Source of the DNA: Desertimonas flava
GTDB taxonomy: Bacteria; Actinomycetota; Acidimicrobiia; Acidimicrobiales; Ilumatobacteraceae
Direction: 5' to 3'
Length of the DNA stretch: 64,000 nucleotides
Assembly: GCF_003426815.1 (NCBI RefSeq)
Contig: NZ_QKYK01000001.1
Span: forward strand, 248,001 to 312,000
A program made the position numbers and the translations under genes. Under the pieces are notes generated by a model. The model was given only the letters and a program-made list of their open reading frames with translations, was not told the origin of the DNA and made no database searches. Below are positions 53,033 to 59,262 of the stretch, one piece after another; position 1 is the first letter of the stretch, and each line of letters begins with the position of its first letter.

Positions 53033-56000
53033 GTGCCAGGCCGCTGGCCTACCATCAGGGGCCTGAACACGTCGGCCTCGGAGCGGTGGCCGGCGGCGAC
53101 GGTTGAACGTGTACTCGCCCATCGGCTGACGCTCGTGGTTGCCGGTCCGGGCTGGGGCAAGTCGACGTTCATCCGCAGGGTGGCTTCGGTGACACGCAGT
53201 GTCGAGGTGATCCGTCCGCCGTCGGGCTGGACGTCCTTTGCTCTGACGCGGGCGCTCTTCGACGCGATCGGCGCCGCCGGGAGCGAGGAGCTGCCGGCGT
53301 ACACCAGCGCGACCCAGGAGGACCAGGCGGCTCACGCCGCCGCGCTGGCGGCCGGGTTCGCCGCGGTCGCGGCCGAGCGGATCACCGAGGACACCGTCGT
53401 GCTGCTCGACGACGCCGACTGGCCCGCCGGTGACCCGCTGTCGGTCTTCCTCGAGACCCTCGTGCTGCATCTGCCCGTCCGGCTGCACCTCGTGGTCGCA
53501 GCCCGGACCGCCCCCGCCCTTCGCATCGCCCGTCTCCGCGCCGCCGGCGAGGTGCTCAAGGTCGGTGGTGACGACCTCGCCGTCGGCATCGACGACGTTG
53601 GCGACGACGTGGTGACCGACGCCGCCAGCCGCGACACGGTCGCGGCCATCGTCGAGGCGACCGGCGGGTGGCCGCTCGCCGTGCAACTGGCCACGGCGCT
53701 CGTCCGCCGCGACGGCTCGCTCGATCGCGAGCAGGTCGTGGAGCGGCTGCTCGCCCCTGACGCGGTGCTGTTCGACTACCTGGCGGAGGAGATCGTCGCC
53801 GGACTCGGCTCGGCCGAACGGGAGTTGCTCGCCCTCGTCGGCGTGCTGCCACGGGTGTCGGCGGAGCTGCTCGGAGCGGTCGGCCGCGACGACCTGGCCG
53901 CCCTGCTCGATCGCATGGTCGCCGATCGCATCTTCGTCGAGCCGATCATGTCGAGTGTGTGCGACTCTCGGGCCACGATGCTCGGCCGGCAGTTCGTCCG
54001 CCGGGCCCTGCCCGCACCGGATCCATCCCTGGTGGAGCGCGTCGCCGACGCCTACGTGGCGGCGGGTGACGTGGGCAACGCACTGCATCTCGCGGCCTAC
54101 TCCGGGTCCGCCCCGCTCGTGATCAGGGTGCTCGGTGCCGTCCAGCACCGGCACCTGGTGGAGCTGCCGCACGCCGTCGAGGCGGCGCTCGACGTCGCCG
54201 ATCGCGGTCCCGCCCACCCGCTGGCCGCCGAGCTGCGCGCCGACCTGCACTACCGGACGGGGCGTTGGGACGAGGCGCTCGCCGCCTACGGTCGCGCTCT
54301 CTCGATCGCCGGCGACGACGGCGGTGCGACGCGCCTCATCCGCAAACAGGCGGCGATCCACTACCTGCGCGGCGATCTGGCGGCCACCGACGCAGTGTGC
54401 AGCACGGCGGTCATCGATGGCACGGACCCCTGCAACGAGGCCTGGATCCTGATGTGGCGGGCTGTCGTCTGCTGGAACCGGGCCGACCGCGCCGGCTGCG
54501 CCGGATTCGTCGAGCCGGCCGAACAGCTGGCCGCCGAGGCCGGAGACGACTCGGCGTGGGCCGCCGTCTACACCGCTAAGGCGATGCTTGCCGCCCTCGA
54601 CGGAGACCTCGCCGCCAACCTTCACTGGTACGAACGGGCCCTCGAGCACGCGCAACGGGGCGGCGACGTGGTGCAGGTCATCCGCATCCACGCCAACCGG
54701 GGGAGCCGCTTCACCGAGGAGGGCCGCTACGCCGAGGCGCTGGCCGAGCTCGATACGGCGATCCAGCTCTCCGAGGTGGCCGGATCCGACACGTTCACGG
54801 CCCTCGCGTTCAACAACCGCGGGGAGGCCCACCTGGCGCTCGGCAACCTCGACGACGCCCTCGTCGCGCTGCGCGAGGCGGAGCGGATCTGGACACGGCT
54901 GGGCTCGCGCCGTGTGCTCTACGCCGTCGGCAACCTCGGTGTGGTTCAGTACATGCGCGGCCAGCGCGCCCAAGCGATCGCTCTGTTCCGGCAGGCCATC
55001 CGGCTAGCTGCCGAGCAGGGCGACGCCCAGGGCGAGGCGGCGTCGCTCGTCGGGCTGGCCCGAGCGCTGGAGCTGGAGAGCCCCGACGAGGCTGCAGCCG
55101 TCGCCCAACGGGCCGTCGACTCCGGCCAGGCCATCTGGATGCCGCACGCCCTGGTCACCGCCGGCGGCATCGCGCTGCGGATGGGCGATCGCGCCGCAGC
55201 CCGCGGGTGGGCTCACAAGGCCTCCCAGCTCGCCGCCGATCGACGCGATCGCCCGGCGCTGGCCGAGTCGCTGCTGCTCCGGGCGGCGATCGAACAGCCG
55301 CCCGACGTGGCCCTCGCCGAGGAGGCCGGGCGGCTTTGGAACGACCTCGGCAACCGCATCGGACGCGCCCGCGCCGACCTGTTGATCGCCCAGTCACGCA
55401 GCGGGCGGCGGCGTGACGAGCTGGTCGCCGACGCCGAGCGCGTGCTCTACGACGCCGGGGCCCTCGGCTATCTCGCCGACTGGCGCCTGCTCGCCGCGGG
55501 ACCAACGGCGCCTGAGGTAGCGATCTTCACCCTCGGTGGCTTCCGGGTGGTGCGGCGCGGTGTCCCGGTCGACGTGGGGGAGTGGGGATCGCGCAAGGCC
55601 CGCGACCTCGTCAAGCTGCTCATCGCCCGGCGCGGGGCCCCGGTCGTGCGCGACGAGGCCCTCGACGTGCTCTGGCCGGACGCCGGTGAGCGCTCGGGTC
55701 GGCGGCTGTCGGTGCTGTTGAGCACCGTGCGGAACGTCTTCGACCCCGGCAAGGCGCACGAGCCCGAGTACTTCGTCAACGCCGACCACGACACGATGTG
55801 GCTCGTTCGGGATCACGTCGATCTCGACATCGAGTCGTTCATCGCCGAGGCCGCGGACGGTCGTCGGCTGCTCGCCGCGGGCGACCGGCAGAAGGCCCGC
55901 GACGTGCTGTCGGACGCCGCGGCCCGCTACGTCGGGGACTTCTGCGCCGACGACCCGTACGCCGACTGGCTGGCCGGCATCCGCGACCTCGCCAAGCACA

Positions 56001-56239
56001 CGTTCGTCGACACGTCGTTCGAGCTCGCCGGGCTCGCTGATGCGGCCGGCGAGCACAGCGAGGCGATCCGCCACTGGCTGCGCATCCTCGACGTCGACCC
56101 CTACGACGAGGATGCCTATCTGGGGTTGATCGCTTCGTTGCTGGCCCAACGTCGCCACGGCGAGGCCCGCCGGGCGTACCGCAAGTACTGCGCCCGCCTC
56201 GCGGAGCTCGACATCGAGCCCGCCCCGTTCCCCAGGTAG
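53033..56239 (+). CDS. ATPase/TPR regulator with C-terminal SARP-type (OmpR HTH + BTAD) output
   Basis: A 1068-residue protein. The N-terminal STAND-type ATPase has Walker A 'VVAGPGWGKSTFIRR' (near residue 37) and Walker B-like 'TVVLLDDADWPAG'. A TPR-like region follows (about 340-800; 'ALAFNNRGEAHLALGNLDDALVALREAERIW'). Next comes an OmpR-type winged helix ('IFTLGGFRVVRRGVPVDVGEWGSRKARDLVKLLIARRGAPVVRDEALDVLWPDA', about 826-880). The BTAD domain forms the last 150 residues ('EYFVNADHDTMWLVRDHVDLDIESF…'). In AfsR-type SARPs the DNA-binding part is N-terminal, so the order is reversed here. The start is uncertain: GTG at 53033, or a CTG at 53063 that has TACCAT 7 nt upstream. Confidence 0.87.
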   Translation: MPGRWPTIRGLNTSASERWPAATVERVLAHRLTLVVAGPGWGKSTFIRRVASVTRSVEVIRPPSGWTSFALTRALFDAIGAAGSEELPAYTSATQEDQAAHAAALAAGFAAVAAERITEDTVVLLDDADWPAGDPLSVFLETLVLHLPVRLHLVVAARTAPALRIARLRAAGEVLKVGGDDLAVGIDDVGDDVVTDAASRDTVAAIVEATGGWPLAVQLATALVRRDGSLDREQVVERLLAPDAVLFDYLAEEIVAGLGSAERELLALVGVLPRVSAELLGAVGRDDLAALLDRMVADRIFVEPIMSSVCDSRATMLGRQFVRRALPAPDPSLVERVADAYVAAGDVGNALHLAAYSGSAPLVIRVLGAVQHRHLVELPHAVEAALDVADRGPAHPLAAELRADLHYRTGRWDEALAAYGRALSIAGDDGGATRLIRKQAAIHYLRGDLAATDAVCSTAVIDGTDPCNEAWILMWRAVVCWNRADRAGCAGFVEPAEQLAAEAGDDSAWAAVYTAKAMLAALDGDLAANLHWYERALEHAQRGGDVVQVIRIHANRGSRFTEEGRYAEALAELDTAIQLSEVAGSDTFTALAFNNRGEAHLALGNLDDALVALREAERIWTRLGSRRVLYAVGNLGVVQYMRGQRAQAIALFRQAIRLAAEQGDAQGEAASLVGLARALELESPDEAAAVAQRAVDSGQAIWMPHALVTAGGIALRMGDRAAARGWAHKASQLAADRRDRPALAESLLLRAAIEQPPDVALAEEAGRLWNDLGNRIGRARADLLIAQSRSGRRRDELVADAERVLYDAGALGYLADWRLLAAGPTAPEVAIFTLGGFRVVRRGVPVDVGEWGSRKARDLVKLLIARRGAPVVRDEALDVLWPDAGERSGRRLSVLLSTVRNVFDPGKAHEPEYFVNADHDTMWLVRDHVDLDIESFIAEAADGRRLLAAGDRQKARDVLSDAAARYVGDFCADDPYADWLAGIRDLAKHTFVDTSFELAGLADAAGEHSEAIRHWLRILDVDPYDEDAYLGLIASLLAQRRHGEARRAYRKYCARLAELDIEPAPFPR

Positions 56240-56367: not shown

Positions 56368-57261
56368 TCAGGCGACGGTCTCGAGCGGCTGGCCGGTGAC
56401 CTCGTCGACGTACAGCGGCAGCGGCGTGGCCCGGGGACGGCCGCGGCCCCGCTTGACGGCCACGACCGCACCGTCGAACAGGAACTCTCCGCCCCACACT
56501 CCGTACGGCTCGCGGCGCTCGAGGGCCCGGCTGAGGCACAGCTGGCGCACGGTGCAGACCGAGCAGATCGCCTTGGCCCGCAGGACGTCGCGAGGGTCCT
56601 CGGAGAAGAACAGCGACGTGTACGACGCTCGCGGGTCGGCGCAGCGCGCCGCGCTGGCGATGCGCCGGTTGGCGTCCACGGGGTCGAGTTGGTCCCCGTC
56701 CTCTGGCCGGTCCGCCGAATCACGGAGCTCGGGCCGGCCCGTCCACAAGGTGGTGGCGTAGGCCCGCACGTACGTGAACGGCAGACCCGTGAACCTCCCC
56801 GGCGCGTTCGGGTCGCGAACGACGAAGTAGCCACCGCCGGGGAAGGCCCGGTGGCGAGCGTACCCGACGAGGACCACGGCGTGCCCGTCGACCAGCGTCG
56901 CGCCCTTGCGGTCAGGGGTCGGCACCTCCATCAGCTCCACCCCGAGGATCGGCGCGTGGTTCAGCGTCTCGGGCGTCGGCCACCAGCCGTAGAAGGCGAC
57001 GGCCGAGCCGGCATCGAGCGCGGCGATGGCGCGATCGAGTTGGTTGCGGTCGGCGCCGCAGCTGCGGTCGAAGCCCTTGATCGTGTCGCCACTGACCTCG
57101 CGCGACGCCGGGAACGACATCTCGATGAGGCGCCTGGTGTAGCCGACGCACCAGTCCCAGGCCGGCAGGACGTTGGGGAACTCGTCGGCGAGGTAGGTCG
57201 ACACGCCGTCGTCATGGTTGCGGAGGTCCACCGTCGGAGCGGCACGCCGGGTTTCCGCCAT
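56368..57261 (-). CDS. Papain-like (C1-type) domain fused to a WhiB iron-sulfur domain
   Basis: A 297-residue protein with two domains. Residues about 10-175 resemble the second half of a bacterial papain-like peptidase: 'LDRAIAALDAGSAVAFYGWW…DGHAVVLVGYARHRAFPGGGYFVVRDPNAPGRF', with His127 and Asn152 in the catalytic positions. The usual QGxCGSC nucleophile segment is missing, and Cys38 or Cys68 would have to serve. Residues about 205-265 form a WhiB domain: Cys207, Cys233, Cys236 and Cys242 (A-I-C-S-V-C…L-C) plus the 'GVWGGE' turn. A basic AT-hook-like 'KRGRGRPR' follows at 270-277. WhiB proteins bind 4Fe-4S and sigma factor. An in-frame GTG at 57297 would add 12 residues. Confidence 0.8.
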   Translation of the reverse strand: MAETRRAAPTVDLRNHDDGVSTYLADEFPNVLPAWDWCVGYTRRLIEMSFPASREVSGDTIKGFDRSCGADRNQLDRAIAALDAGSAVAFYGWWPTPETLNHAPILGVELMEVPTPDRKGATLVDGHAVVLVGYARHRAFPGGGYFVVRDPNAPGRFTGLPFTYVRAYATTLWTGRPELRDSADRPEDGDQLDPVDANRRIASAARCADPRASYTSLFFSEDPRDVLRAKAICSVCTVRQLCLSRALERREPYGVWGGEFLFDGAVVAVKRGRGRPRATPLPLYVDEVTGQPLETVA

Positions 57262-57321
57262 GTTCCGCGGCCGCTCCGACGGGGACGTCTTGCTCACACC
57301 GGAGCAGTCTGAGCTTGCCGG

Positions 57322-57343
57322 TTCGGGCCGTGTTCGGGCCGTG
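57322..57343. repeat. Two 11-bp direct repeats in the divergent promoter region
   Basis: TTCGGGCCGTG occurs twice in exact tandem (57322-57332, 57333-57343), followed by a third partial unit TTCACGT. It lies between the WhiB-fusion gene (-) and the monooxygenase gene (+). An 11-bp spacing puts the sites on the same DNA face, suiting cooperative regulator binding. Confidence 0.5.
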
Positions 57344-57459
57344 TTCACGTCGCGTCCTGCCCGCGCGCTCGGTCCGATGCGGCGCCGGCGATGGTGCCAG
57401 AGTGGCGACGTTCGTGCCCGGCGGGCGCCGCCGGACCGAGGACGGTACGAGGAGGGGAC

Positions 57460-59262
57460 GTGACCGACATCGTCGACATCGACGCACTGAAGGCGAAGTA
57501 CGCCGAGGAGCGGGCCAAGCGACTGCGACCTGATGGCAACGACCAGTACGTCCAGGTCGCCGGGAGGTTCGCCCACTACCTCGTGGACCCCTACACGCCG
57601 GTGGTGGAGCGCGCGCCCGTGCGCGATCACGTGACCGTGGCTGTCGTCGGTGGAGGCTTCGCCGGACTCCTCGCCGGCGCACGCCTCAAGGAAGCGGGGG
57701 TGCCCGACGTCCGGATGATCGACAAGGCCGGCGACTTCGGCGGCACGTGGTACTGGAACCGTTATCCCGGCGCGCAGTGCGACACGGCGTCGTTCGTGTA
57801 CATGCCGCTCCTCGAGGAGACGGGCCACATGCCCACCGAGAAGTACGCCCACGCCCCCGAGATCCTCGAGCATTGCCAACGCATCGGCCGCCAGTTCGGC
57901 TTGTACGACAACGCCCTGTTCCACACCGAGGTGTCCGAGCTAGTGTGGGACGACGACGCACGGCACTGGATCGTGCGCACGAACCGCGGCGACGAGTTCA
58001 GCGCCCAGTTCGTGGCCACCGGAACCGGCCCACTGCACGTCCCGAAGCTGCCGGGCATCCCCGGTCTGGAGACGTTCCAGGGGCACTCGTTCCACACGAG
58101 CCGCTGGGACTACGAGTACACCGGCGGTGACCCGGCCGGCGCCCCGCTGGACAAGCTGGGCGACAAGCGGGTGGCCATCATCGGCACCGGCGCGACCGCC
58201 GTGCAGTGCATCCCGCACCTGGCCATGGCGTGCAAGGAGCTCTACGTCTTCCAGCGCACGCCGTCGTCGGTCGACGTCCGCGACAACCGGCCGACCGATC
58301 CGGAGTGGTTCGCCGCCATCGCCACGCCCGGCTGGCAGCAGCGCTGGCTGGAGAACTTCACGGCCAACCAGACCGGCGTCGGCGGCGACGAGGACCTGGT
58401 GATGGACGGCTGGACCGACCTGTCACGCCGCATCCGAGCCAAGATCATGCAGCTGCCGCCGGACCAGATGACGCCTGAGGGCATGCTCGCCGCGTTCGAG
58501 GACTCGGACTTCGAGAAGATGTCGGAGATCCGGGCCCGGATCGACACGATCGTCGAGAACCCGGAGACGGCGCAGAGCCTCAAGGCGTGGTATCGCCAGC
58601 TCTGCAAGCGCCCCTGCTTCCACGACGAGTACCTGCAGGCGTACAACGAGCCGGGGACCCACCTCGTCGACACCGACGGCAAAGGCGTGGCCCGGATCAC
58701 CGAGTCTGCCGTGGTCGTCGATCGCCCCGATGGGCCTGTCGAGTACGAGGTCGACTGCATCATCTACGCCTCGGGCTTCGAGGTGGGTACCGAGCACGCC
58801 CGGCGCGCCGGCTTCGACCCCGTGGGCCGCAATGGTGTGCGGATGTCCGAGCACTGGGGGACGGGCATGCGCAGCCTCCACGGCACTCACGTGCACGGGT
58901 TCCCGAACATGCTGCTGCTGCAGATGACCCAAGGCGCCAACCTGATCTCCAACGTGCCCCACAACTTCGTCGAGTCGAGCCGGACGGTGGCGATGATCGT
59001 CAAGCACGCCCTCGACCAGGGCTACCGAGAAGTGGAGGTGACGGCCGAGGCCGAGCAGCAGTGGGTCGACCTCCTGCTGACCGGTCCCGGGACGTTCCTC
59101 GGCTCGGCCGACTGCACCCCCGGCTACTACAACAACGAGGGACAGCAGAGCGCCTACAACCGGGCGTTCTTCGTCGGCTACCCGCAGGGTGCGATGGCGT
59201 ACTTCTCGTATCTCGACGAGTGGCGCAACTCCGGCGACTTCGCCGGCCTCCACTTCCGCTGA
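57460..59262 (+). CDS. Baeyer-Villiger monooxygenase (class B flavoprotein)
   Basis: A 600-residue FAD/NADPH enzyme. The FAD site is '[21 protein letters not shown]' (near residue 53), followed by '[15 protein letters not shown]'. The BVMO fingerprint F-x-G-x3-H-x3-W is '[11 protein letters not shown]' (about 207-217). The NADPH site is '[13 protein letters not shown]'. Such enzymes insert oxygen next to ketones, for example in steroid or cyclic-ketone breakdown. The N-terminal 50-residue extension ('[25 protein letters not shown]') is typical of the long phenylacetone/steroid-type group. The GTG has GGAGGGG just upstream. It stands alone, divergent from the WhiB-fusion gene. Confidence 0.93.

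Follow-up and report, generated by a model that had tools for sequence, protein, structure and literature searches.

The question raised by this locus is what a papain-related segment is doing in front of a WhiB domain, and under what control the joined protein is made, in a family, the WhiB-like proteins, that consists mostly of small single-domain factors whose mode of signal reception is debated. In the window, by which we mean the whole stretch of 64,000 nucleotides of Desertimonas flava DNA that was analysed, the open frame pointed out by the initial annotation, which did not name its strand, is present on the minus strand from 57261 to 56368, with 297 codons. The fusion of a WhiB domain and a C1-homologous part is real and rare, a variant within the WhiB7 class. 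The features that bear on it are listed here, with MGR_bin99 standing for the second genome that carries such a gene.

53033..56239, plus strand: regulator of 1068 aa with a MalT/STAND-like ATPase, TPR and a C-terminal SARP (BTAD) part, convergent with the fusion gene
56368..57261, minus strand: fusion gene, 297 codons plus stop from ATG 57261, an open frame with the same two-domain layout in the MGR_bin99 ortholog
56422..56649, minus strand: residues 205-280, WhiB7-class domain with C207, C233, C236, C242, EPY at 251-253 and GVWGGE at 254-259
56431..56454, minus strand: AT-hook-like KRGRGRPR, residues 270-277
56650..56730, minus strand: residues 178-204, variable linker
56731..57045, minus strand: residues 73-177, homologous to the right-hand (His/Asn) half of papain, with His127 kept and Asp150 for the catalytic Asn
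57046..57261, minus strand: residues 1-72, with VDLR near the start, as in C1 peptidases, and no detectable Gln/Cys part
57262..57297, minus strand: possible N-terminal extension by 12 codons if the start is GTG 57297, for 309 codons in all
57306..57311, minus strand: -10-like hexamer CAGACT, 8 bp past the last heptamer
57320..57348, minus strand: heptamers GTGAACA, CCGAACA and CCGAACC with 4-bp spacers CGGC and an 11-bp period, a probable SARP operator
57460..59262, plus strand: Baeyer-Villiger monooxygenase-type gene, divergent from the fusion, with a likely start at GTG 57460 after AGGAGGGGAC

The second carrier belongs to another genus of the same family, the MAG 'Acidimicrobiia bacterium isolate MGR_bin99' (label G026), where a 324-codon frame on contig JACCUL010000116.1, of 3,157 bases, holds both parts in unchanged order and is 54% identical overall to the D. 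flava fusion. The joining of WhiB to a papain-related segment, as originally described, is borne out by this recurrence of the two-domain chain in a second genus, along with the Pfam Whib match and the C1 homology set out below. Among 61 relatives searched, MGR_bin99 is the one genome besides D. flava to have the N-terminal part. Eight of the 221 family genomes match the N-terminal profile at an E of 0.01, these being the two carriers and six weak matches, of which the two that were read are an ordinary C1-type peptidase and an unrelated oxidoreductase-like enzyme; fusion carriers are thus 2 of 221. One of two scans of contig collections came back empty and the other returned only JACCUL010000116.1. 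No further carrier was found in samples of 395 class, 397 order and 396 phylum genomes, into which MGR_bin99 was presumably not drawn, since it is absent from the matches of all three. At an E of 1e-25 the whole-fusion profile matches 17 of the 396 phylum genomes, and every row outside the D. flava genome begins no earlier than profile column 215, where the linker and WhiB7 part lie. Three weak matches in the class sample were rejected, their frames or opposite strands reading by eye as unrelated (mutase-like, DNA ligase-like and transporter-like). The plasmids and viral contigs searched for the fusion gave no match, and neither did an NCBIfam search of the fusion protein. The rarity of the arrangement, known from two genera, limits the general weight of the finding.

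The WhiB end of the chain was described initially as a four-Cys domain with a GVWGGE turn and an AT-hook-like tail, and that description stands: Pfam Whib matches residues 205-258 (E 6.3e-13; 49.5 bits, cut-off 23.6), and among solved structures the closest is WhiB7 (7kif; E 2.4e-15), aligned with residues 216-278 through the AT-hook. All four cysteines are invariant in the ortholog, and E251-P252-Y253-GVWGGE occurs in both fusions. PMC6282962 gives the triplet before GVWGG as EPW for WhiB7 and EPY for WhiB3, and the WhiB7 hook as KRPRGRPRK. KRGRGRPR of the fusion aligns to that hook; Pfam AT_hook falls below its cut-off in the ortholog (11.4 vs 17.4 bits) and is not listed for the D. flava fusion. 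In a tree of WhiB domains the two fusions group together with a support of 0.87, and the WhiB7-class clade that contains them has 0.996. By sequence, the WhiB part is WhiB7-class. According to PMC6282962 and PMC3905903, holo-WhiB7 binds the primary sigma factor at its region 4 and, through the hook, A+T-rich DNA that lies upstream of the -35 box; we infer that the fusion would likewise bind an Fe-S cluster and sigma region 4.

In the D. flava genome, three WhiB7-class paralogs that stand alone (L194, L195 and L196) have a similar C-terminal tail; counted with the fusion, they bring the WhiB7-class proteins of this genome to at least four. Among the MGR_bin99 WhiB frames with the C-C-C-GVWGG pattern, the hook is found only in the fusion; two of the eight MGR_bin99 WhiB matches (L188 and L193) and one from D. 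flava (L192) do not show that pattern and fall outside this comparison. L195 and L196 stand next to each other on opposite strands (C1:89645-91007), and L194 lies on C10. An ordinary WhiB gene pair on opposite strands also adjoins in both genomes, at C20:2496-3403 in D. flava and at C278:4442-5195 in MGR_bin99.

For the N-terminal part, comparison by hhalign of the two fusion N-termini with a 37-sequence C1 profile gave a probability of 98.5 and a score of 100 over 96 columns, corresponding to D. flava residues 73-177. Single sequences gave 94.3 (D. flava) and 98.6 (the ortholog), and further C1 profile comparisons of the fusion N-terminus gave probabilities of 80, 91 and 85. Against the score of 100, the controls reach at most 20.4 (the best of 200 column shuffles; the reversed alignment scores 14.2), which vindicates the reading of the GHAVVLVGY segment as C1-peptidase-like. 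Residues 1-72 alone do not match the C1 profile (probability 0.3). In a search of the order with the two-row N-terminal profile, six of the seven non-self matches are stand-alone C1 peptidases (L051-L056); the seventh, epimerase-like and unrelated, was rejected. The profile search envisaged at the outset gave a mixed result: Whib was found, and Pfam Peptidase_C1 (PF00112) is just over its cut-off in the ortholog (21.8 vs 20.7 bits), while the N-terminus of the D. flava fusion has no Pfam match over cut-off, PF00112 included. Searching PDB sequences with the two-row profile gave 25 weak matches at E up to 10, the best at 0.019 (dipeptidyl peptidase 1), with papain-family chains mixed with chance matches such as ribosomal protein S12. 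On these comparisons, what can be recognised of papain in the fusion is its right-hand His/Asn half only.

To ask what controls the fusion gene, we considered its upstream region and its neighbours. The tandem repeat finder reports an 11-bp array of 2.8 copies at 57317-57346 in D. flava. Upstream of the MGR_bin99 fusion the sequence reads CCGAACG, CCGT, CCGAACA, then 8 bp, GATGCT, 6 nt and ATG; there are two exact heptamer units, as against three in D. flava, and the finder reports no array at that site. The element common to both fusions is CCGAACN5CCGAAC, followed exactly 8 bp on by an xAnnnT hexamer. SARP promoters are described as carrying direct repeats with a period of 11 or 22 bp, of which the 3' one is 8 bp away from the -10 element (PMC10936776); SARP-LAL operators are described as made up of two or three heptamers separated by 4-bp spacers (PMC5930380). 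The repeats at 57320-57348 are probably a SARP operator, and CAGACT and GATGCT would be the respective -10 elements.

Such repeats are not rare in themselves, one match with at most one mismatch being found in a single window where 0.77 would be expected. CCGAACN5CCGAAC occurs four times in the D. flava genome, twice in MGR_bin99 and 63 times across 13 genomes, of which the 12 besides that of D. flava were hand-chosen; all 63 sites were read. The xAnnnT hexamer stands at 8 bp in 2 of the 63, and these two are the fusion promoters, each with an ATG or GTG 5-9 nt later; the three other copies in the D. flava genome are without the -10 spacing. By count there is no excess, as the hexamer appears 33 times over 17 spacings (0-16), with 0 to 6 at each and an average of about 2. 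The weight of the 8-bp test would instead lie in both sites being the fusion promoters (one pair of 1,953 possible), and the test has some freedom, the frame of the heptamers having been chosen by eye.

The hexamer also bears on the start of the gene. GTG 57297 is in frame and lies 8 nt past the hexamer, and we think it may be the start, at least as likely as ATG 57261. The short distance from hexamer to start suggests leaderless-type transcripts, going by general knowledge of actinobacterial promoters.

The initial annotation drew no link between the repeats and the SARP-type regulator at 53033-56239. Pfam gives BTAD in this protein 61 bits (cut-off 22.1) and Trans_reg_C 19.2 bits, below the cut-off of 26.2. 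A regulator of this kind adjoins the fusion in both genomes, convergent in D. flava and in tandem in MGR_bin99, where the fusion is flanked by the regulator and by a frame that is CoA-transferase-like by eye. The MGR_bin99 regulator is seemingly split across two contigs, the pieces being 50% and 61% identical to the D. flava protein. Its frame on the fusion contig (L020 1-1377) extends beyond the conserved end and overlaps the start of the fusion (1256-2227) by about 120 bases; the MGR_bin99 repeats fall inside this open 3' tail. Relatives of the D. flava regulator at E 1e-30 or better occur in 9 of the 221 family genomes. In 10 stretches around other SARP relatives (among L040-L050, of which L047 is a C1 peptidase of G588 and not a SARP stretch), no frame matches the fusion profile or its WhiB part, and there are no repeat copies near those regulators.

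It might be argued that the peptidase half is a decaying relic and that translation from an internal start yields the WhiB7 part by itself. Just ahead of the WhiB part there is an in-frame GTG at codon 195, GTG codons are found there in MGR_bin99 too, and residues 1-72 are weakly conserved between the two fusions, at 38% identity. No good ribosome site is seen by eye before codon 195, however, and in both genomes the promoter-like layout and start codon precede the peptidase half. Residues 73-177 are 61% identical across the two genera with pN (0.28) below pS (0.44), while identity in the linker drops to 23%; the WhiB part is 68% identical (pN 0.22, pS 0.52). The peptidase half and the WhiB domain both look to be under selective retention, with the linker drifting, and we consider a relic unlikely.

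The initial annotation's idea that redox state or proteolysis gates the fusion as a regulator of the divergent Baeyer-Villiger monooxygenase is quite unlikely in our estimation. The most likely start of the monooxygenase gene is GTG 57460 behind AGGAGGGGAC, rather than ATG 57391, and the protein matches the pentalenolactone D synthase model with an E of 4.5e-218, yet below the cut-off (725 vs 1100 bits). The two genes are indeed divergent, their likely starts lying some 160-200 bp apart, and the tandem 11-bp repeats are indeed in that gap, but the repeats and the -10-like hexamer point to the fusion's own start, and the layout is repeated before the MGR_bin99 fusion. A survey for the same fusion and its neighbour, which had been proposed along with this idea, turned up the fusion in a second genus; the monooxygenase gene is not on the contig that holds it. 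Gating by proteolysis would also have to contend with the missing catalytic Cys. A 518-codon frame upstream of the fusion, which extends in antisense into the monooxygenase gene, was not regarded as a coding frame.

In the alignment to the C1 profile, the segments with the catalytic Cys and the oxyanion Gln are absent from both fusions, in agreement with the first reading, which had noted that a canonical QGxCGSC nucleophile segment is missing. By comparison, Gln, Cys, His, Asn, Ser and Trp are kept at the active-site columns in 37 of 37 members of the profile, and all of the ten true peptidases that were aligned have Gln, Cys, His and Asn. His127 is present in both fusions and the catalytic Asn only in MGR_bin99, where the Asn-Ser-Trp motif is intact. 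D. flava reads Asp-Pro-Asn at this motif, so that Asp150 occupies the Asn column, and Asn152, named earlier as the catalytic residue, is displaced from that role. The earlier suggestion of a degenerate part that is not a protease agrees with the loss of Gln and Cys in both proteins and of Asn in D. flava, and judged by these residues the N-terminal part is a pseudo-peptidase module.

Such a module could conceivably inhibit a papain-type enzyme of the same cell or act as its decoy, pseudo-peptidase halves being able, as a matter of general knowledge, to bind peptidase substrates or inhibitors. We think this very unlikely for D. flava because its genome has no match in a genome-wide Peptidase_C1 search, though that search missed the borderline MGR_bin99 ortholog too. 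A working cysteine peptidase with Cys38 or Cys68 as the nucleophile, for example one that cleaves itself to release the WhiB7 part, is barely credible, for while His127 and the GHAVVxVGY core are kept and the ortholog also has Asn-Ser-Trp, the two cysteines are Ala and Arg in the ortholog, the Gln/Cys segment is detectable in neither fusion and the catalytic Asn is Asp in D. flava.

Structure prediction from the single fusion sequence was unusable (mean pLDDT 33.5). A model from a 35-row alignment reached a mean pLDDT of 67 and a pTM of 0.65, with block means of 87-88 for residues 71-90 and 79-87 for residues 131-170. The best 50 of 353 Foldseek matches are papain-family chains by title, with query TM-scores of 0.28-0.40, and E is below 0.001 in only one of the 353. 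In a second structural comparison Lpg2622 has a Z score of 9.9, xylellain one of 9.7 and a papain-fold seed protein that lacks the Cys one of 8.2, although the tool warns that Z of 7-8 is common. The model agrees with a papain fold, and this likeness is not independent proof of one, as the input alignment consists mostly of C1 peptidases.

On balance we lean towards a SARP regulator that switches on a WhiB7-class activator carrying a dead pseudo-papain as a binding or gating module. The STAND/TPR/SARP protein, on its signal, would bind the 11-bp-spaced heptamers 8 bp before the -10 element and so turn the fusion gene on. The fusion would then act as a WhiB7-type sigma adaptor, with the EPY/GVWGGE surface to sigma region 4 and the AT-hook to A+T-rich DNA upstream of -35, and the half-papain part, lacking its nucleophile segment, would serve in binding or sensing and thereby position or gate the activator. 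The outcome would be a two-step cascade from a STAND-SARP sensor through a pseudo-papain-WhiB7 activator to A+T-box promoters. For the switching step, the SARP regulator is the most likely agent given the layout common to the two genomes, and sigma adaptation of the WhiB7 type is most likely from domain homology; for the half-papain, binding or gating is the most likely role, a guess constrained by conservation. More tentatively, it is possible that the half-papain is an input domain that binds a peptide or protein signal and thereby gates the WhiB7-class Fe-S activator downstream of the STAND-SARP sensor. If true, this would be a pseudo-peptidase-gated sigma adaptor, a kind that we did not find described in the open-licence literature searched.

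The closest known system for the C-terminal part is WhiB7/WblC (class V WhiB-like), which shares with the fusion the four Cys, the E-P-(W/Y) triplet, the GVWGG turn and the AT-hook. The fusion differs in having about 200 partly papain-related residues in front and a promoter layout of SARP type, and it is not a small single-domain protein, the solved WhiB7 chain having 92 residues against its 297 or 309. WhiB7 is autoregulatory through an A+T-rich box, according to PMC3905903. We found no WhiB protein with a peptidase-fold partner in the open-licence papers searched, as the initial annotation would have it: a WhiB-papain fusion is not described in the accessible parts of PMC6282962, PMC4255298, PMC3905903 and PMC3218068, and the one Wbl fusion mentioned in those of PMC6282962 has a sigma factor, not a peptidase fold, as its partner. 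With the bacterial C1A peptidases (xylellain 3ois, Lpg2622 6a0n and the six stand-alone enzymes of the order) the fusion has in common GHAVV-VGY, a motif of (R)NSW type and a G-x-LPF/Y ending; unlike them, it is without the Gln/Cys segment and most of the left-hand half and has a WhiB domain attached. Another papain-fold chain without the catalytic Cys is 2b1m from Pachyrhizus erosus seeds (the structural match with Z 8.2), but this is a plant seed protein with no transcription factor domain attached.

The proposed control resembles the PimR-PimM and AfsR-afsS cascades, in which a large SARP with an ATPase part acts through an operator of 11-bp period on a regulator as its target. The literature gives 4-bp spacers between the heptamers of the PimR operator and 8 bp between the 3' repeat and the -10 element for AfsR. 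In D. flava the target would instead be a WhiB7 fusion, and the heptamer is CCGAACA where the PimR consensus is CGGCAAG. The order of parts also differs, the SARP part of the 53033-56239 regulator being C-terminal, after ATPase and TPR, the reverse of AfsR and PimR.

The conserved additional domain of this WhiB7-class factor provides a way into the question of what such factors are able to sense, and the promoter layout is a testable wiring that would place a large STAND-type SARP directly over a WhiB7-class activator, bringing together in a single cascade, if true, two of the major regulator families of actinobacteria. The combination would also be a case of a leftover protease part put to new use within a gene switch. 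As a separate observation on the C1 family, papain-like peptidases are common in IMG/VR viral contigs, with at least 534 stretches encoding relatives among the 600 listed.
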